DNA of 64,000 nucleotides. Origin: an uncultured Anaeroplasma sp. GTDB taxonomy: Bacteria > Bacillota_I > Bacilli_A > Acholeplasmatales > Anaeroplasmataceae. The stretch's first letter is position 1. Every line of letters begins with the position of its first letter. Positions 7,268 through 59,155 of the stretch are shown here, piece after piece. The DNA lies in the NCBI GenBank assembly GCA_947592005.1, contig CANQDJ010000002.1:1-64000 (forward strand), in the 5' to 3' direction. The notes below the pieces were generated by a model. That model ran no database searches. It saw nothing but the letters and a program-made list of their open reading frames with translations, and was not told the origin of the DNA. The position numbers and the translations under genes were made by a program.

Positions 7268-8113
7268 TTACTCCTTATTTTTATACTTAATATATTCTTT
7301 ATATAACTCTTTTCTATCCTTGTTACATAGCCTTGCGGTTTCCTTAATCGCTTCATTCGGCTTATACCCCAAAGATAAAAATTCTTCAATCTGTTCTATC
7401 GGATTTACGGAATCTTTGCCTTGTTCTTTATATCCTTCTACCAACAAAACCATTTCGCCTTTTATCGAATCGATTTTCAATACCTCTTCTATCGTTCCCC
7501 GAATAAATTCCTCATACGTTTTCGTCAACTCTCTCGCTATACAAACATTTCGATTTCCCAAAACCACCAACATATCATTCAACGTTTCAAAAATACGGTG
7601 TGGGGCTTCATAAAAAACCAACGTATGCGGATAATATTTCAATTCCTTCAATTCCTCGATTCGTTTGGATTGTTTGCTGTTCAAAAATCCATAAAATTGA
7701 TAAGGCATCACCGGAAAACCGGAAGCAATCAACGCACTGATACCGGCAGATGCTCCGGGAATAGTAGAAACCGCAATATGATGTTCTACCGCCGATTTGA
7801 CAATTTTATACCCCGGATCGGAAATAACCGGCAACCCCGCATCGGAAATTACAGCGATTTTCTTTCCGGATAGTAATTCATTTATAATTTGTTCGGTTTT
7901 AAGTTCTTCATTAAATTCATGATAACTTTCCAATAAGGTATGTATTTCATACTTATGTAAAAGAATAATAGAATTTCTTGTATCTTCCGCATAAATTTTA
8001 TCAACGGTTTTTAAAATATTTACCGCCCGATACGTCATATCTTCCAAATTCCCTATCGGTGTCGCAACCAAATATAAAATACCGCCGTCTTGATTAAAAC
8101 TTCGTATTCTCAT
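7268..8113 (-). CDS. rsmI: 16S rRNA (cytidine1402-2'-O)-methyltransferase
   Basis: LYLVATPIGNLEDMTYRAVNIL, AEDTRNS, ISDAGLPVISDPG motifs. Confidence 0.95.
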   Translation of the reverse strand: MRIRSFNQDGGILYLVATPIGNLEDMTYRAVNILKTVDKIYAEDTRNSIILLHKYEIHTLLESYHEFNEELKTEQIINELLSGKKIAVISDAGLPVISDPGYKIVKSAVEHHIAVSTIPGASAGISALIASGFPVMPYQFYGFLNSKQSKRIEELKELKYYPHTLVFYEAPHRIFETLNDMLVVLGNRNVCIARELTKTYEEFIRGTIEEVLKIDSIKGEMVLLVEGYKEQGKDSVNPIEQIEEFLSLGYKPNEAIKETARLCNKDRKELYKEYIKYKNKE

Positions 8114-8520
8114 TAGTTTTTAATAATACGAATAGCCTTTTCTCTTAAATCTCTTTCAGCATAAACAATCGAAATCAATTCTCTTCTCTTCTCTGCCGAA
8201 ATTTCGAATTTCTTTTGAATTTCCTCTAAGAACAATAACTCCGAAGTATTATACAAATCATCTTCCATAGAAATCGTAACCAAATTCAAATAAACCACAT
8301 TTTTTACAACTTGATTCGAATTTTGGAAAAAAGTAATTGTATTTTCAATCGTATCTGTCAAACGAAAAGAATATTCTTCTCTTACAGCGTCCAATTCAGC
8401 AATCATTTTTGTCAAAATCCGTTTTTCCACATCATTGGGTTCTCCGTCAATGTCAACCATATAGATTGCCAAATCCAAAAACTTCAACATTTCTTTTTTG
8501 TTTAATAAACTTAAAAACAT
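8113..8520 (-). CDS. TerB-like helical protein
   Basis: FLDLAIYMVDIDGEPNDVEKRIL resembles the TerB metal-binding helix-turn pattern. Confidence 0.5.
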   Translation of the reverse strand: MFLSLLNKKEMLKFLDLAIYMVDIDGEPNDVEKRILTKMIAELDAVREEYSFRLTDTIENTITFFQNSNQVVKNVVYLNLVTISMEDDLYNTSELLFLEEIQKKFEISAEKRRELISIVYAERDLREKAIRIIKN

Positions 8521-11862: not shown

Positions 11863-11894
11863 ATATCTTAAATTTACTAGTATTTTCCTCTATT

Positions 11895-12012
11895 ATCGTT
11901 CGGTATCGCCCGGTATCGTTCGCTTTATCGTTCGGTATCGCCCGGTATCGACCGCTTTATCGTTCGGTATCGCCCGGTATCGACCGCTTTATCGTTCGGT
12001 ATCGTTCGCTTT
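11895..12012. repeat. GC-rich tandem array: 32-bp unit x3 plus one shortened unit
   Basis: Consensus ATCGTTCGGT-ATCGCCCGGT-ATCGACCGCTTT; units start at 11895, 11927, 11959 and 11991 (the last lacks the middle 10-mer). Confidence 0.95.
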
Positions 12013-12022
12013 GTCGTTATTT

Positions 12023-12718
12023 TTATTCCTTTTCATAATTATCTAAAAACAATACCTTTTCCCCATCTTTTTTATACCCCAATACCTTTTGTATATACAC
12101 ATTTGAAGTACTTATAAATATATTCTTCTCCACTGCCGAATTATAAGATAATAAATCATGAATCCATTTCTTTGTTTGAAGTTGAATTTCTTCTTTTGGA
12201 TTTTCTTCAAACAACAAATGATTATAATTCTTCCAAGCCGTTATATCTCGTTCCCTAACCAAATACAATGGTTGTATATATATAATATCCTCTATCTCTT
12301 TTTGGGGAAGTATCGTTTTAAATTCGCCATTGAATAGTACATTCATCATCGTCGTTTCTATAACATCGTCATAATTTTTATCTTCCACCATAATATGGAT
12401 CGACTGGTTTTTTAGCCAAGATTGAATGTTTCCTTCTTCTATAAACTCACATACAGGAATCTTTAAAAGTTCCACATTCTTTTTTACAGACTCTCGGTTT
12501 ATTCCTACAAAATCCACTTCAAAAGGAAAATCAGAATGCCGTTCCAACTCCTGAAACAACTTCGCCAAAACAAAACTTCCGCTTCCACGCAATAAAACAC
12601 AAATATGATCTTGTGGATTCAATAACCGATATTCTTTTAAAGCCTTTATAAACTTACTCCAAATCTTGCCTCTATATGTTGTGATAATCGACCTTTCCAC
12701 TTCTTGATAAAACTCCAT
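12023..12718 (-). CDS. Degenerate TtcA-family (PP-loop tRNA thiolase-like) protein lacking catalytic motifs
   Basis: EVERSIITTYRGKIWSKFIKALKEY, LAKLFQELERH, YDDVIETTMM, PLYLVRERDITAWKNYN, GYKKDGEKVLFLDNYEKE match the TtcA scaffold; SGGKDS replaced by RGSGSF. ATG at 12718 follows the truA stop. Confidence 0.75.
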   Translation of the reverse strand: MEFYQEVERSIITTYRGKIWSKFIKALKEYRLLNPQDHICVLLRGSGSFVLAKLFQELERHSDFPFEVDFVGINRESVKKNVELLKIPVCEFIEEGNIQSWLKNQSIHIMVEDKNYDDVIETTMMNVLFNGEFKTILPQKEIEDIIYIQPLYLVRERDITAWKNYNHLLFEENPKEEIQLQTKKWIHDLLSYNSAVEKNIFISTSNVYIQKVLGYKKDGEKVLFLDNYEKE

Positions 12719-12719
12719 A

Positions 12720-13463
12720 CTATCGCTCCTCGCCATATACCACATTATATAAATATAATCCACACCCGTCCGCAACTTTATGAGAAATTTTCGGATCCCC
12801 TTTTTCTAATACTTCCTTAATTTTTTCTTCCGTTTCTTTTCCCCTTCCGATTTCAATCAACAATCCGACCATTCTTCGAATTTGATATTTCAAAAACCCG
12901 TTCCCAATAAACACAATCTCCAAAAAATCATTCTTCCGAATTATTTTAGCCGAATAAATCGTCTTAACGGTATCCTTCCTTTTATCAATGCTTGCCGAGG
13001 CAAATCCTTTGAAATTATGCGTTCCTTCCAATAACGATATAGCATTTACCATTTTATCTATATCCAATCCTCGCAATTGAAGGGCATAATTACGATAAAA
13101 TGGATTATATTCTTTCGTATAAATAAAATAATGATACTCTTTGGATATGCAAGAAAATCTTGCATGAAAATCTTCCGAAACCAAATGAACTTCTCGAATA
13201 AATATATCTTTTGGAAGAAAAGTATTCATTCCGTTCTTTATTCCTTTAGGAGATATTTTTTTATCCAAATCAAAATGAAATACCTGATGAACCGCATGAA
13301 CACCACGATCTGTTCTTCCGGACGGATAAATCTTAACTTCCACTCCCAACATTTGAAAAACCGCATTTTTTATTTCTTTTTCTATCGTCGGCAATTCTTT
13401 TTGAATTTGAAAACCCATATAATTACTGCCATCATAGGCAACCACACACATATATCTAAACAT
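12720..13463 (-). CDS. truA: tRNA pseudouridine synthase A
   Basis: YDGSNYMGFQIQ, PSGRTDRGVHA, FLKYQIRRMVG. Confidence 0.95.
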   Translation of the reverse strand: MFRYMCVVAYDGSNYMGFQIQKELPTIEKEIKNAVFQMLGVEVKIYPSGRTDRGVHAVHQVFHFDLDKKISPKGIKNGMNTFLPKDIFIREVHLVSEDFHARFSCISKEYHYFIYTKEYNPFYRNYALQLRGLDIDKMVNAISLLEGTHNFKGFASASIDKRKDTVKTIYSAKIIRKNDFLEIVFIGNGFLKYQIRRMVGLLIEIGRGKETEEKIKEVLEKGDPKISHKVADGCGLYLYNVVYGEER

Positions 13464-14430
13464 AAAATCTACTCCAAATCACCAAACCGAAGAATCCAAG
13501 CATAACCACTAAACAGACATAATCTCGCCATTTTAACTTCAATTCGTCCAATTTAGTCCGTTTTTCTCCGATAATATATCCTCTTGCCTCCATCGCATCG
13601 GACAAATCGTCTGCCTTTTTAAAAGAAATCACAAGCATCGGAATTAATAAGGCAATCATTTGATTTATCTTTTCTTTTATATTTCCCTCTTGAAAATCCA
13701 ATCCCCGAGAGGCTTGGGCATTCATAATTTTTTTACTTTCGTCCAATAACGTCGGAATAAATCGCAGCGTTAACGCAATCATCATAGAAAACACGCCTAC
13801 CGGAATTTTAATAATCTTTAACGGAGATAAAACCGCTTCTATTCCATTATTAATATCCATAAACATTGTTGAAAACGTCAATAAAGAAGTGATTCCCAAC
13901 ATTATAACAATACGAATAAAGACAAAAGCCGCTTTATTTAATCCTTCCCTATATACATCAAATGTAAAATCATTCCAGATAAATCTATCAAAACGGGCAA
14001 ACCATAATAAAACAAAGACCCCCGCTATCAACACCAAAAAATATAAAAATCGGAGCGGAATATACTTTTTAGTAAACAAATAAAACAAAACCATTCCCAC
14101 TATAATAAGCGTATGAAACAATCCTATCTGCATAGGAAAAGAATATAAAAGAGTTTCTGCCGTTCCCGTCGTATAAATCAACTGTAAAAATATCGTAAAA
14201 ATCAACAAAAATAAAATCGGTCGTAATCCTTTTATCACTCGGAAAACAGAAATACGAGTGGATAAAAAAATAAGAAAAAAAACACCCAACGCAATTACCA
14301 TTCCCATCAAATTAGGAATTAAAAAAATTAAAACAATCATTAAAACCATCAAAATAATCTTCATTCTCGGATCTAACCGATAAATCCAACTATTTCCCGG
14401 AATATATTGTCCAAAGGTAATGCTATTCAT
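13456..14430 (-). CDS. ecfT: ECF transporter T component
   Basis: LDPRMKIILM, QASRGLDF, ADDLSDAMEARGY; follows two EcfA ATPase genes. Confidence 0.92.
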   Translation of the reverse strand: MNSITFGQYIPGNSWIYRLDPRMKIILMVLMIVLIFLIPNLMGMVIALGVFFLIFLSTRISVFRVIKGLRPILFLLIFTIFLQLIYTTGTAETLLYSFPMQIGLFHTLIIVGMVLFYLFTKKYIPLRFLYFLVLIAGVFVLLWFARFDRFIWNDFTFDVYREGLNKAAFVFIRIVIMLGITSLLTFSTMFMDINNGIEAVLSPLKIIKIPVGVFSMMIALTLRFIPTLLDESKKIMNAQASRGLDFQEGNIKEKINQMIALLIPMLVISFKKADDLSDAMEARGYIIGEKRTKLDELKLKWRDYVCLVVMLGFFGLVIWSRFYV

Positions 14431-15280
14431 ATCTTTTCACCACCTCTTCGACTAAATCATTCAATGTATAATTATTATAGTCCAAGCCATATTTAAACTT
14501 ATCATTCAAATAATCTATCAATTTTAAAACTTCCGGTTTCTCCAAATGTGTTTCTTTATATATATTCGTTTGAAACACCGTTTTCTTATCCCCATCATAA
14601 GCGATTTTTCCATTATTCATTACGACAACACGATTGGCATATTGATAAACAATATTCATATCATGAGAAATAAGAATAATCGTTTTATCGGTTTTTTTAT
14701 GAATAGAATAAAATAATTCCATTATTTCTTCTGCCGCCTTCGGATCCAATCCTCTGGTCGGTTCATCTAAAACCAAAATATCGGGATCATACGATAATAT
14801 CCCCGCAATCGCTACTTTCCGCATTTGTCCTCCGCTCAAAGTAAACGGCGAATGATCCAATAAATTTTCAATGCCTAAAAGTTTGGCAATTTCGATTGCC
14901 TTTTGTTTGGCTTCTGCTTCTTTAAACCCAAAATTCTTAGGGGCAAACATAATATCTTTCAAAACCGTTTCTTCAAATAATTGATATTCGGGAAACTGAA
15001 AAACAAACCCCACTCTTTTCCGAATATCTCTCAATCTCGGATTCTTTTTTTTATTCGAAGTAATCGTTTTATCAAAAATCTCCACCGTTCCTTTAGAAGG
15101 CAATAATAAGGCATTGATATGCTGAATAAGCGTAGATTTTCCACTACCCGTTTTACCAACAACGGCAATAAATTCTTTTTTTTCATTTATATTCCAATTT
15201 ATATCTTCTATCGCAATCGTAAATTCTTTTTTCTTTCTTCCCGGATAATAATGACTTACTTGCTTAAATGATATTCCCAT
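14423..15280 (-). CDS. ecfA2: ECF transporter ATPase A2
   Basis: GKTGSGKST, LSGGQMRKVAIAGIL, LVLDEPTRGLDP. Confidence 0.93.
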   Translation of the reverse strand: MGISFKQVSHYYPGRKKKEFTIAIEDINWNINEKKEFIAVVGKTGSGKSTLIQHINALLLPSKGTVEIFDKTITSNKKKNPRLRDIRKRVGFVFQFPEYQLFEETVLKDIMFAPKNFGFKEAEAKQKAIEIAKLLGIENLLDHSPFTLSGGQMRKVAIAGILSYDPDILVLDEPTRGLDPKAAEEIMELFYSIHKKTDKTIILISHDMNIVYQYANRVVVMNNGKIAYDGDKKTVFQTNIYKETHLEKPEVLKLIDYLNDKFKYGLDYNNYTLNDLVEEVVKRYE

Positions 15281-16065
15281 AACGCATTCATCAACTCCTT
15301 ATCCTTTTCCAAGATATCCTTTTTACTCATTTCTTCGATAACCTTTAAGGTAAACGGCAAATCCAAATTTGCTTGTCGAATCAGTTCTTTATTCTTGAAA
15401 ATCTCCTCCGGTGTTCCCGAAGAAAGAATTTTTCCTTCTTTTAAAACAATTACACGATCGGATAATTTAGCCAAATTCAAATCATGCGTAATGGTAATTA
15501 CAGTTTTATTATATTTCGTATGCAACGTTTGAATCATTTCGATAATCTCTTTTGTCCCTTCCGGATCCAACATAGATGTAGCCTCGTCTAAAATAATCGT
15601 TTCACAATTCAATGCCAAAATGCCGGCGATTGCCACTCTTTGTTTTTGTCCACCGGAAAGAGTTTGTGGTTCTCTTTCTAAATAGTTTTGCATATCCACT
15701 TTACGCGTATATTCTTCAATCAAAGGTATCATTTTCTCTCTTGGAACTTGATAATTTTCCAACCCAAATGCGACATCATATCGAACATTAAACCCAACAA
15801 ATTGATTATCCGGATTTTGAAAAACAATACCGATTTTATGCCTTATGGTATTTACCGTTTTTTCAGTAATCGGTATCCCGTTATACGTTATACTTCCTTC
15901 TTTCGGAAAAATAAGCCCAACCAACAACTTGGCAAGTGTAGATTTTCCACTCCCATTTTGCCCAATAACAGAAATCCATTCCTTGTCGGCAATAGACATA
16001 GAAATAGCATCTAAAACCGGTTCTTTTGTGTTATATGAAAATGATACATCTTTTACCTCTATCAT
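15256..16065 (-). CDS. ecfA1: ECF transporter ATPase A1
   Basis: GQNGSGKST, LSGGQKQRVAIAGIL, IILDEATSMLDP. Confidence 0.93.
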   Translation of the reverse strand: MIEVKDVSFSYNTKEPVLDAISMSIADKEWISVIGQNGSGKSTLAKLLVGLIFPKEGSITYNGIPITEKTVNTIRHKIGIVFQNPDNQFVGFNVRYDVAFGLENYQVPREKMIPLIEEYTRKVDMQNYLEREPQTLSGGQKQRVAIAGILALNCETIILDEATSMLDPEGTKEIIEMIQTLHTKYNKTVITITHDLNLAKLSDRVIVLKEGKILSSGTPEEIFKNKELIRQANLDLPFTLKVIEEMSKKDILEKDKELMNALWEYHLSK

Positions 16066-16888: not shown

Positions 16889-18826
16889 TTAAGAATGAAT
16901 TTGTTCAATTTGTTCTTTTTTTACTTCGAAACTTCCTTGTTTTTTATCATGTAATAATTGATACAAATACGAATTCACATTCTTTTTATTCTCCGCACTT
17001 ATATCAAAATCAAAAGAAACCTCATACGCCAATTTTCGTAATGCCGTTTGATATTTTTCATTCAATGTCGTTCGTATTTCTTGATTTTTAATATATTCAT
17101 CAAACAAAACATCTTTTTTATTTTTATTCGCAAAACCAACAGTGGATTTTGTCGACAATCCTTCAATAATACATATCGTATTCGCCAAAGAAACATTTCT
17201 TCCTCTTTGATCGATAAAATCCCCCTTATACATCATATTCAAAATAAACGACTGAATCATACCACACGCTTTATCAAAATTCTTAAAAATCAAAATGGAC
17301 ATCGGATATTCCAAAATATGCCTGCATAACATTCCCTCATCTTCATACCCCACATATCCCGGAGGAGCCCCTATAAGACTAGTAACCATTACACTTTCTT
17401 TATATCCGTTTAAATCGATTTCCAACACATTTTCCATTCCCAAATGAAAAATATTCATTATATCTATTTCTAAATTCTTTAATCCTTCATTGTTCCCCTC
17501 ATAAGATATTTTTAATAATGGCTTATCTTCCAATAAATCCATTTTATATAACCAAGCATATTGATCTAATTTTGGGTAATAGAGTTTTAAATTCGTTTCT
17601 TCCGTCGCATTTCCGTTCGCTCCTTCAATCGCTCTATCTATATCTTCTACACGTACTTCTTTTTTATTCCTAATGTGATTTGAACTCATCACATCATCTA
17701 AAATATCAATACATTTATCAGGACGATATTTTCTTAAAATCTTTCGATTACTTTGGAAAATCAAATAATCCAAAACATCATCCGAAATAGTTACTTTATG
17801 AAATTCTTCATATTCTTTGCGAATACCGAATAAAATCTCTTTTGTTTCTTCTATCGTCGGTTCACTGATAAAAATCGGCTGAAATCTTCTTTGTAGTGCC
17901 TTATCGTTTTCTATGGTCTTGTGATATTCTTCCAGTGTAGTTGCCCCAATCACCTTAATATCACTTCTTGCCAAAAATGGTTTTAACATATTCGCAACAT
18001 CTAAATTCCCTTCTGTCGTAGCCGCTCCCATAATAATATGGATCTCATCAATAAAAATAACAACATTCTTTTTAGACGCTATTTCTTTTACGAATTTATC
18101 AAACCGTTCTTCAAAATCTCCCCTATATCTCGTTCCTGCCAACATCGCAGTCAAATTTAAAGAAAGAATCGTTAAATCCTTTTTCTCTTTCACCATTTTC
18201 ATGGCATATCCTTCAACAAGAGCAGTTTTACCAACTCCCGCATTTCCAATCAATAATGGATTATTTTTGAATCTTCGATTCATTATTATATCCATTCGAT
18301 TCAAATAATTTCTACGTTCCACAAACATGGCAAGTTCATTGTTTTTAGCAAGTTTTGTAATGTTTTTTATAAATCCCAATTCGTCCGCTTCGTTTGCCGA
18401 AAAATCATAGATTTCTTTAACATCTTGTATTAAATCATCAATATCCAATCCCAATTCCTGAAGAATCGATGCGGCAATCGTATTTCGATTCATTAAAATA
18501 GCCATAAAAATATGTTCTTCGGAAATCAATTTATCCCCTGCCAATATACCGGCTTGACTGAGAATGGTTTCCAATGATTTATTATATTCTCCCTCTTGTT
18601 TTCTCAATATAAAAATATCGTTTGTTTTTTCTTGAACTTCTTCTATACTTACTTCATATTCTTTTAACAAAAAATGACAAAGACTATCTTCGGTTTCATA
18701 CATCGCCAAAATCAAAAATTCGCTTCCCATAGTCGATATACCATGTTCATTGGAATATTTTCTGGCTAAATCCATAATTTGTTTGGCCCTCGTGTTTAAT
18801 TCCATAATTTTCCACACTCCAATCAC
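16889..18826 (-). CDS. ClpC/ClpB-like AAA+ protein with degenerate second AAA domain
   Basis: Clp N-domain, D1 Walker A GNAGVGKT and Walker B VIFIDEIH intact; D2 recognisable only by LIGAPPGYVGYEDEG and QGRNVSLANT. Confidence 0.82.
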   Translation of the reverse strand: MIGVWKIMELNTRAKQIMDLARKYSNEHGISTMGSEFLILAMYETEDSLCHFLLKEYEVSIEEVQEKTNDIFILRKQEGEYNKSLETILSQAGILAGDKLISEEHIFMAILMNRNTIAASILQELGLDIDDLIQDVKEIYDFSANEADELGFIKNITKLAKNNELAMFVERRNYLNRMDIIMNRRFKNNPLLIGNAGVGKTALVEGYAMKMVKEKKDLTILSLNLTAMLAGTRYRGDFEERFDKFVKEIASKKNVVIFIDEIHIIMGAATTEGNLDVANMLKPFLARSDIKVIGATTLEEYHKTIENDKALQRRFQPIFISEPTIEETKEILFGIRKEYEEFHKVTISDDVLDYLIFQSNRKILRKYRPDKCIDILDDVMSSNHIRNKKEVRVEDIDRAIEGANGNATEETNLKLYYPKLDQYAWLYKMDLLEDKPLLKISYEGNNEGLKNLEIDIMNIFHLGMENVLEIDLNGYKESVMVTSLIGAPPGYVGYEDEGMLCRHILEYPMSILIFKNFDKACGMIQSFILNMMYKGDFIDQRGRNVSLANTICIIEGLSTKSTVGFANKNKKDVLFDEYIKNQEIRTTLNEKYQTALRKLAYEVSFDFDISAENKKNVNSYLYQLLHDKKQGSFEVKKEQIEQIHS

Positions 18827-56392: not shown

Positions 56393-59155
56393 CTATCCCC
56401 TCACTATATCCGCAGTTTTGGCAAACAGTTTTTTTCTGTGTCTTTTCCAATTTTCTATATCTTCCGTTGGACCGATATGAACAATTAAATCTCCGTAAAA
56501 AACAGTAGTCAACAATCCAAAAGAAACCACTTTTTCCCAATCATAACAATGAATTTCTTGCGGATCGAAGGTCTTTAAATACTTATTCAAATAATGAATG
56601 ACATTCCACTTATTTACACAAACCACTTTCGCCCCGTTATACTCTTTCTCCTTCTTTTGACCCAATAAAAGAATAACATTTTCCTTTGAAGAATCCAATG
56701 TTGCTTGTCCCAAATGATTTAGAATATATAGATTCCTATTCCCTTTCTTCCGCTCTATATGCCGATCCGACATATCATATTTATCTCCAAGCGTAGAAAT
56801 AAAGAATATCGCCACAAAAACCGCACAAACATAATTCATTAAAGTGGCTTCGGTTAAACCATATATAAAATAAACGATCAATCCCACAAAAAGTTTACAA
56901 TCTTTTGTCTTAACCACTTTATAAGAAAGAATTACATAAATAACCAAATATATACTATAACAAATAATCCCTTGAAAAATCAAAACATTCAAATAAAGAT
57001 TATCAATCGGAAGAATATCATATGTAGGATCAGATACCCCATTAAACCCGAATAATGTCCATCGATTCTCCTTTAGATATATTGAAAAAATAGATAATCG
57101 ACCGCTTATCAACGAGTTCAACGTTTCTAATTTGTTCACATACTTTCCTGCCAAAATAGTAATCATCGTAAACAACGGAAAGGCCAAAACCAATCCATAT
57201 CTCCATTTTCCTTTTACTCGAATACCATCGGAAATAATATCCAGCATCAACAACAAAACCACACATAAACATCCTGTTCTCGACCTAGTGAAACTATAGA
57301 CAACTCCTGTCAAAACGGCAACACAAATCTTTTCCAAATAACTCGTTTTTCGGTATAACATCAAACTCAAATACCCAATAAACAAAAACAAAGAAACCGT
57401 ATTTGGGTGAGAGAAACCCAAAGAATGCCGTTCATAACGAGGTTGCCATGTTTGAGAATAAACAATAAAGATTTCATCTTTCAATACGCCGAATCCACAG
57501 AATATAACTGTTTGTAAAGAGAAAAACGCAATACTCAAAAACAACGCTTTTAAAAATGGTTTTGCCCCTTTATCCGCGTAACATACCCCTAACGCAATCA
57601 ACATAATAAACGCCGGATCTTGTACAAAAACCGCAGTAAATCCCGCTAAAATACCATAAAATATCAACTTCCTATAATTTATACTTGTCATGGTTTTGGC
57701 AACAAAATAAACCAAACAAGCCATTAAAAATACAATTAAAATCAACACATTCGTTTTATTTAAACCGGAATCATTGATATATAAAGTATAAAACTTAAAT
57801 CCCACCAAATAAAACGTCAATATTTGTGGAAAACAATCTACCAATTTTGTCTTCAAATTAATCCATTTCTCTTTCCGAGAAATCGATCTATCTTGTATTC
57901 TTCGGATTATATCCGTAACACAAACAATCCCCAAAAATAAGAATAAAAATGGTAAAATAATATATTTTATAAATCCAGAACATTCAATATAAAATGTTCC
58001 CATCGTCTTTTTGGATTGTTCCGCTCCGCTAAAAAAGATTTTCACTTCCGAAGGCATCTGTTCAAACTGCTTAAAATGTCTATTCCCTTCTTGTTCTAAT
58101 TCAAATAAACTGAACTGAATATACTTCACATCATCAGAAAGAGAATAACTAACATTAAACTTCGTAGAATCGGAATAATTATCCTTATGATAATGAAATT
58201 CAATTTCATACAATGCCTTTTCATACCGACTATCCATTCCCGAAACATTATTATAAGAAACATTCAACCTATCCGCTTCTTTTGGAATGTCGAATTCAAA
58301 AACCATTACCCTTTTTTCATTCACAAAATCATCTAAACTTACCCAATTATATCCTATATTTTGAAATTTGGGAGAGATTTCATTTTCGGCAACAGGTAAC
58401 ACATCATTTATATTAACATCATATCCCGCTAATAAATACGAATACAATTCTTTACTTCCCTGTAAACTTACCTTCTTCCCAACATTGGTAATATACTCGT
58501 CCAACTCTTGTTTACAAACTATAATCGCTTTATAATCCGTACCTCTTAATATAAATTTATTAAGTAATTCTTTATTTTCCTCTGCCTTCTTTTCTTTTTT
58601 CGTCAATTGAATAACTTCTAAATTAACTGTAAGAATAGACTGTGTATCAATAAAATCAAAAGGCATACCTAGTTTTTGATTTTTAAAATTTTCAAAACTA
58701 TAAACATAATATAAGTCATTATCCTCTTTTCGTTCATAAAAATGCTCACCCAACTCATCATAGGTATAGTCACAAAGAGCCTCATCTATATCCGAATCTC
58801 CGAAAATCGTTTTATAGTTTTTACCATTATTAATCATAACCTCTTTCCCAGGTACCGTTTGATTATCATGATACTTTTGATTCAACCGGCCGTAAAAAGG
58901 TAATCTTCCTTGATTCCCATTATTTTGAGAAAAACGATATTCCAACGATACCCTTCCATTGATACTATCGTCTATTTCCGTATATTCCGTATAATCATAC
59001 TCTAAATCCACTTCACTTATTTCCGGTTGGTTCTTAAAAACCACATCGGAAGAATAATCTTTTGTCCTTGTCTTAAATCGATATGGTATAGCCGCCAAAT
59101 AAATGGCTGAGAAAGAAATAAGAAGTAAAAGGATCATAATCATCTTCTTTTTCAT
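56393..59155 (-). CDS. Large multidomain O-antigen polymerase-like membrane protein
   Basis: One N-terminal TM, ~370-aa predicted extracytoplasmic region, multi-TM Wzy-like core (SLGFSHPNTVSLFLFIGYLSLMLYR, SFTRSRTG, LFGFNGVSDPTYDILPIDNLYLNVL), C-terminal ~115-aa soluble domain. Confidence 0.68.
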   Translation of the reverse strand: MKKKMIMILLLLISFSAIYLAAIPYRFKTRTKDYSSDVVFKNQPEISEVDLEYDYTEYTEIDDSINGRVSLEYRFSQNNGNQGRLPFYGRLNQKYHDNQTVPGKEVMINNGKNYKTIFGDSDIDEALCDYTYDELGEHFYERKEDNDLYYVYSFENFKNQKLGMPFDFIDTQSILTVNLEVIQLTKKEKKAEENKELLNKFILRGTDYKAIIVCKQELDEYITNVGKKVSLQGSKELYSYLLAGYDVNINDVLPVAENEISPKFQNIGYNWVSLDDFVNEKRVMVFEFDIPKEADRLNVSYNNVSGMDSRYEKALYEIEFHYHKDNYSDSTKFNVSYSLSDDVKYIQFSLFELEQEGNRHFKQFEQMPSEVKIFFSGAEQSKKTMGTFYIECSGFIKYIILPFLFLFLGIVCVTDIIRRIQDRSISRKEKWINLKTKLVDCFPQILTFYLVGFKFYTLYINDSGLNKTNVLILIVFLMACLVYFVAKTMTSINYRKLIFYGILAGFTAVFVQDPAFIMLIALGVCYADKGAKPFLKALFLSIAFFSLQTVIFCGFGVLKDEIFIVYSQTWQPRYERHSLGFSHPNTVSLFLFIGYLSLMLYRKTSYLEKICVAVLTGVVYSFTRSRTGCLCVVLLLMLDIISDGIRVKGKWRYGLVLAFPLFTMITILAGKYVNKLETLNSLISGRLSIFSIYLKENRWTLFGFNGVSDPTYDILPIDNLYLNVLIFQGIICYSIYLVIYVILSYKVVKTKDCKLFVGLIVYFIYGLTEATLMNYVCAVFVAIFFISTLGDKYDMSDRHIERKKGNRNLYILNHLGQATLDSSKENVILLLGQKKEKEYNGAKVVCVNKWNVIHYLNKYLKTFDPQEIHCYDWEKVVSFGLLTTVFYGDLIVHIGPTEDIENWKRHRKKLFAKTADIVRG

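Follow-up and report, generated by a model that had tools for sequence, protein, structure and literature searches.

A TtcA-lineage gene of an uncultured Anaeroplasma that has lost every catalytic motif and kept its reading frame

Introduction

Can an enzyme of tRNA thiolation lose the whole of its chemistry and still be kept by its genome, and if so, for what purpose? The question is raised by a gene of the TtcA (tRNA 2-thiocytidine(32) synthetase) family at positions 12023-12718 (minus strand) of the window, i.e. the entire 64,000-nt stretch of DNA that was analysed, which comes from contig 2 of an uncultured Anaeroplasma assembly (G000) of 1.49 Mb in 76 contigs that is 97 % complete. An initial annotation, made from the sequence alone, had described the product as a full-length TtcA homologue stripped of its catalytic motifs, i.e. 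a pseudoenzyme, and had suggested that it was retained for a non-catalytic function such as tRNA binding or the regulation of a catalytic paralogue. A partial search of the open-access literature found no report of a dead bacterial TtcA. Combining alignments, profile searches, structure prediction, phylogeny and neutral simulation with a survey of related genomes, this report provides an assessment of what the protein has lost, where its gene came from and why the gene may have persisted.

The gene, its reading frame and its neighbours

The reading frame begins with an ATG at 12718 on the minus strand and ends with a stop codon at 12023-12025, and its 231 codons contain no internal stop, in agreement with the earlier reading of about 230 uninterrupted codons; the protein segments quoted in that reading were all found. 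A Shine-Dalgarno-like GAGGAG, read directly from the sequence, lies 7 nt ahead of the ATG (12726-12731, minus strand) and within the end of the upstream neighbour truA (12720-13463, minus strand; tRNA pseudouridine synthase, Pfam PseudoU_synth_1, 6.6e-36), the TAG stop codon of which (12720-12722) is separated from the ATG by a single base, such that both the ribosome-binding site and the adjacency to truA are as first described. Ahead of truA are an ecfT-type gene and two ecfA-type ABC ATPase genes (13456-16065, minus strand; open reading frames named from their sequences, not by family search), and this ecf block precedes the truA-ttcA pair in the same order in the congener loci L130-L133. 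The description of the protein as full-length does not hold, since its 231 aa compare with about 275-290 aa (about 280) in intact relatives and the gene has undergone several in-frame deletions. Each change in its length is a multiple of three.

Immediately downstream of the gene, at positions 11893-12017 of the window, a 32-bp unit, TTATCGTTCGGTATCGCCCGGTATCGACCGCT, is repeated about 3.5 times; the unit is composed of shorter 10-bp CGGTATCG-like units, and the core pattern of this array has no other occurrence in the assembly. Elsewhere in the window, a gene at 16889-18826 (minus strand) encodes a Clp-type AAA+ protein of 645 aa, the first ATPase domain of which carries the Walker A motif GNAGVGKT. 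In its second domain the AAA_2 match begins at profile position 15 and Walker A seems absent, and this protein is possibly another half-dead enzyme in the same window. The reading frames at 56393-59155 (minus strand, 920 aa) and 8113-8520 (minus strand, 135 aa) have no Pfam match at an E-value of 0.001.

Descent and predicted fold

The window protein belongs to the TtcA lineage, though it is not an active TtcA. The HMM search and structure prediction proposed in the initial annotation both place it there. The NCBIfam TtcA profile matches the protein at E=2e-11, intact genes of the same genus match it at about 1e-44 to 1e-64, and the nearest of these congener genes are about 50-60 % identical to it over the retained blocks. 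Judged by database thresholds the protein falls short, with 43.6 bits against a cut-off of 272 bits for NCBIfam NF007972 and 16.5 bits against a gathering cut-off of 27 bits for PF01171; its sole Pfam match at E-values up to 10, to ATP_bind_3, is below the cut-off. Since the intact relatives (184-189 bits) are likewise below the NF007972 cut-off, their exact tRNA target is putative. According to the AlphaFold2 model (mean pLDDT 89.7, pTM 0.83), the protein is predicted to keep an alpha/beta fold of the TtuA/TilS type, and the best Foldseek matches of this model are TtuA, NcsA and TilS (5mkq and 3vrh, E about 1e-10, probability 1.00), which are also the structural matches of the intact A. bactoclasticum enzyme. 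Together with the E-values of down to 1e-64 to intact relatives, these matches put the protein within the TtcA/TtuA/TilS group by fold as well as by descent. A PDB sequence match to CID7 and matches to Dam and PucR were weak, at chance level, and were set aside. The protein is thus akin to TtcA (Firmicutes/Mollicutes TtcA-like branch) in common descent, gene slot, collinear scaffold and predicted fold; however, it is without any catalytic motif, about 45-50 aa shorter, and acidic.

Motifs lost and kept

Intact relatives preserve all of the motifs that are missing from the window protein, and alignment with them locates each of the losses on the minus strand, which include those listed in the initial annotation. 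In place of the PP-loop SGGKDS there is a remnant, RGSGSF (residues 44-49; 12572-12589), in which the first Ser, the Lys and the Asp are gone and one residue is deleted. In-frame deletions have taken away the NPGYN loop, between residues 74 and 75 (12494-12499), most of the CYLCARMRRG segment, around residues 88-97 (12428-12457), and the CxC(R/K) segment, around residues 170-175 (12194-12211). The CYLCARMRRG deletion removed the first two Fe-S cysteines and the CxC(R/K) deletion the third, such that none of the three [4Fe-4S] cysteines of active TtcA is left, and there are two Cys in the whole protein. The GHHxDDxxET motif of active TtcA survives in part, as EDKNYDDVIE (residues 112-121; 12353-12385; EDKNYDDVIET for GHHFDDVIET), with GHH gone and DDVIE retained. 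Besides DDVIET, the protein retains the helices at its N-terminus, the PLYLVRE strand-helix and a C-terminal block. For the residues that are essential in TtuA (Ser55, Asp59, Lys137 and Asp161; PMC7138817), counterparts were assigned by motif and not by structure superposition; on that basis three of the four (Ser55, Asp59, Lys137) are lost, whereas the Asp of DDVIE stays.

None of the lost motifs is encoded in the other reading frames of the gene, and the losses are therefore not the product of a simple frameshift or sequencing slip. With the PP-loop, the Fe-S cysteine segments and GHH gone, the protein is capable neither of ATP binding of the PP-loop type nor of holding a [4Fe-4S] cluster, and it is almost certainly a pseudoenzyme, a designation that the alignment, the AlphaFold2 model and the Foldseek matches all bear out.

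Origin in the native gene slot

The slot ecfA-ecfA-ecfT-truA-ttcA is found with an intact ttcA directly after truA in the congeners G016 and G012, and with an insert between truA and an intact ttcA in G021 and G005. The insert is an about 1.9-kb gene in G021 (L131 6867-8741) and a pair of ABC transporter-like genes in G005 (L132 3744-7188). In phylogenetic trees, the window protein clusters with G016, G021 and G005 (99/99 with all rows included, 100/99 as the sole dead row). Based on the intact ttcA in the same slot of congeners and on this grouping, the window gene is the resident ttcA turned pseudoenzyme in situ, not an extra paralogue. The identity of the protein to its nearest congeners is 53-55 %, versus 65-67 % for TruA, whereas TtcA identity among intact congeners is 78-81 %, above that of TruA at 70-76 %. 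Since TtcA is less conserved than TruA only on the window lineage, the acceleration is specific to the ttcA-derived gene, the terminal branch of which measures 1.9 changes per column.

Two further dead homologues

A survey for dead homologues covered 160 genomes of the order as well as samples of 395 genomes from the class and 392 from the phylum, with a minority of matches inspected residue by residue and the remainder judged by match length. Two further proteins with the same losses emerged, both from the genus and order searches. The first, of about 225 aa, is from the same genus (L096 of G041; L144 8505-9218, G041:C45), with a rubrerythrin gene and gltX on either side. The second, of about 245 aa, is from another genus of the family (L162 of G147) and has as its neighbours a carboxypeptidase-like gene and the MarR-ABC-ABC genes that it precedes; an intact ttcA of its congener G142 is placed likewise, and this shared context indicates that L162, too, degenerated in its native slot. 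The neighbours of the three dead genes, among them truA in the case of the window gene, therefore differ, which counts against the explanation proposed below. Apparent further cases in G244, G476, G497, G405, G317 and G387 were explained by masked bases, by the end of a contig, by an ordinary frameshift or by the gene being intact.

When all three dead proteins are included in a tree, L096 joins L162 (97/99); without L096, the window protein and L162 are weakly joined (77/95); and when they are placed singly, the window protein goes to its congeners, as above, and L162 falls among the intact genes of its genus (94/74). The joint trees are likely affected by long-branch attraction. In AU tests, one clade for the three dead proteins (p 0.13) was not rejected, and the same held for placing L162 in its own genus (p 0.21). 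The gene slots argue for two origins, that of the window gene and that of L162, and the claim is confined to these two, with L096 standing outside it. If the three dead proteins had a single origin, they would represent fewer independent cases.

Decay or retention

When the intact G016 and G005 genes were evolved neutrally in simulation to 55 % identity, they accumulated a mean of about 10 in-frame stops, and none of the 120 runs made from each gene remained stop-free; the real gene has 0 stops. The pattern of residue loss is also informative. Among the columns that are invariant over 30 intact family members, the three dead proteins retain 5/26, 2/26 and 4/26 of the catalytic ones and 48/84, 47/84 and 53/84 of the scaffold ones (Fisher P 7e-4, 9e-6 and 3e-5, on counts in which one deletion removes several columns, such that columns are not independent), whereas an intact paralogue on a long branch, used as a contrast, retains 26/26 and 77/84. 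Moreover, 39 scaffold invariants are common to all three dead proteins, compared with 16.9 expected by permutation, and the shared retention has a P of 1e-4 under circular shifts that preserve neighbouring positions together and of 0.012-0.017 for the two best-supported lineages alone, the window protein and L162. The share of these 39 positions that is polar or charged (16, e.g. E8, R9, R16, K28, E58 and H62) hints at more than core packing, and the retained residues could in part reflect fold maintenance and not an interface. Other broken TtcA genes, in G497 and at the C-terminus of G142, have intact motifs and a broken frame, as in ordinary decay. In the G142 gene (L189/L210, G142:C16:7030-7850), the catalytic motifs are intact and the last 40 or so residues are out of frame behind stops, a break attributable to ordinary decay or sequencing error that contrasts with the dead-but-open genes.

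Taken together, the loss of catalytic invariants, the shared keeping of scaffold positions, the open frame and the confident fold favour retention over decay, and the window protein is probably kept by selection. According to the initial annotation, relatives with an intact gene in this place, coupled with neutral decay of the present copy, would have spoken against retention. Relatives do carry the intact gene in the same slot; however, the window copy is not decaying neutrally, as judged by its open frame despite heavy divergence, its non-random residue pattern and the two further cases.

Competing explanations

A rather unlikely reading is that ttcA is simply on its way out, with thiolation dispensable, constraint relaxed and no positive function left, and with the frame held open by translational coupling to truA and by selection against misfolded products. 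Dispensability of the enzyme in the genus is indeed suggested by three congeners, G002 (L150), G023 (L151) and G006 (L152), in which truA is present, no TtcA-family gene was found and TilS is the only TtcA-like match, and both the very long end branch and the ordinary broken copies in the relatives G142 and G497 would fit such a course. Yet the gene shows no stop where about ten are expected at such divergence, losses are far heavier at catalytic positions than at scaffold positions of equal invariance, the same scaffold positions survive in three proteins, and the ordinary broken copies look otherwise. A sequencing or assembly artefact, to which the 76-contig assembly might lend some colour, has a negligible probability given that no other frame holds a lost motif, that several separate in-frame changes are involved and that two further cases come from other assemblies. 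If the fold had instead been turned to a new ligand-binding or catalytic activity, then the long branch and the numerous substitutions at the old active site would be accounted for. However, the alignment of the dead three reveals no new shared motif at the old PP-loop, which reads RGSGS in the window protein and DGTNSS and GDKKS in the others, and no new shared Cys or His cluster, and this is a very improbable outcome.

Two further alternatives are tRNA binding and pairing with an active TtcA. TruB and TrmA are tRNA chaperones independently of modification (reviewed in PMC11301382), and by that precedent, in which catalytically dead TruB still aids tRNA folding, the window protein might have shed its chemistry only and have remained a tRNA-binding, chaperone-like protein. 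The precedent is drawn from different enzyme families. At the N-terminus, all three dead proteins keep the basic residues R9, R16, K25, K28 and K54, and C32 is still present in the candidate substrate tRNAs (Arg ACG, CCG and UCU; Ser GCU), a presence that is not diagnostic of modification. However, the net charge on the columns retained in the window protein is -7, versus +2 to +12 in intact relatives, and the basic residues near the active site are mostly gone from the window protein (R121, R123, R124, K138, K168, R181 and R224). All three dead proteins are acidic, with pI values of 5.42, 5.18 and 5.38 compared with 5.8-8.76 (median 8.26) for the 30 intact relatives; on its own columns, L162 has a net charge of -6, barely beyond the intact range of -5 to +5. 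This acidic turn argues against simple tRNA binding, which is thus improbable, and the suggestion of the initial annotation is weakened, with R9, R16, K25 and K28 at the N-terminus, kept despite the shift, as what still speaks for it. The closest precedent for the window protein is Ctu2/Ncs2, the silent subunit of the eukaryotic U34 thiolase. Ctu2, which has diverged and carries no cluster, forms a pair with its catalytic homologue Ctu1, is thought to help orient the tRNA and retains zinc-finger sites (PMC10067955). The window protein, similarly, is a diverged, cluster-less member of the TtcA/TtuA/Ncs6 group that is without Fe-S cysteines and probably kept by selection; in contrast to Ctu2, it has two cysteines in all and no partner enzyme was found in its genome. 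A comparable pairing with an active TtcA could be imagined for G041, where the dead copy is accompanied by two intact TtcA genes (bin 78 % complete, 5 % contaminated). But when the window protein, PF01171 and a profile of the intact family were each searched against the window genome (97 % complete), TilS was the only match other than the window gene itself, and the intact-family profile likewise found just TilS in G147 (92 % complete). The look for an intact ttcA elsewhere in the genome, as initially advised, therefore makes the regulation of a catalytic paralogue unlikely, and pairing with an active TtcA has but a slim chance of being the answer.

Proposed explanation and significance

The explanation put forward here is that a resident ttcA-family gene was converted in place into a pseudoenzyme, that catalysis ceased with the loss of PP-loop-type ATP binding and of the [4Fe-4S] cluster, and that selection probably retains the scaffold for a job that never required thiolation. 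With the three dead proteins acidic and two of them occurring without an active TtcA, protein-protein binding would be the most likely mode of action, ahead of tRNA thiolation and of partnering an active TtcA. Contacts might be made through retained elements, namely the helices at the N-terminus, the one that follows the old PP-loop, the one with DDVIE and the C-terminal region, and the protein might, for instance, act in translation or RNA metabolism as an adaptor or a dimeric scaffold. As a mechanism, a protein-binding scaffold is a tentative proposal, and the explanation as a whole, i.e. an in-place pseudoenzyme that is kept by selection and probably serves as a protein-binding scaffold, has about an even chance of being correct. 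It is conceivable, with a chance somewhat short of even, that the TtcA family has a second, thiolation-independent function and that at least two Anaeroplasmataceae lineages convergently dropped the chemistry in place with no active partner. On this convergent reading, the PP-loop, Fe-S and tRNA-facing parts would have been deleted and the surface charge reversed while the scaffold was kept.

If this is true, then a bacterial tRNA thiolase family would have a conserved role beyond thiolation that is exposed by loss of the enzyme part, and the window protein would represent a stand-alone parallel in bacteria to the step from which eukaryotic Ctu2 arose. The three dead proteins, along with the intact sister enzymes at the same locus, would then constitute natural separation-of-function mutants for a non-catalytic role of TtcA.
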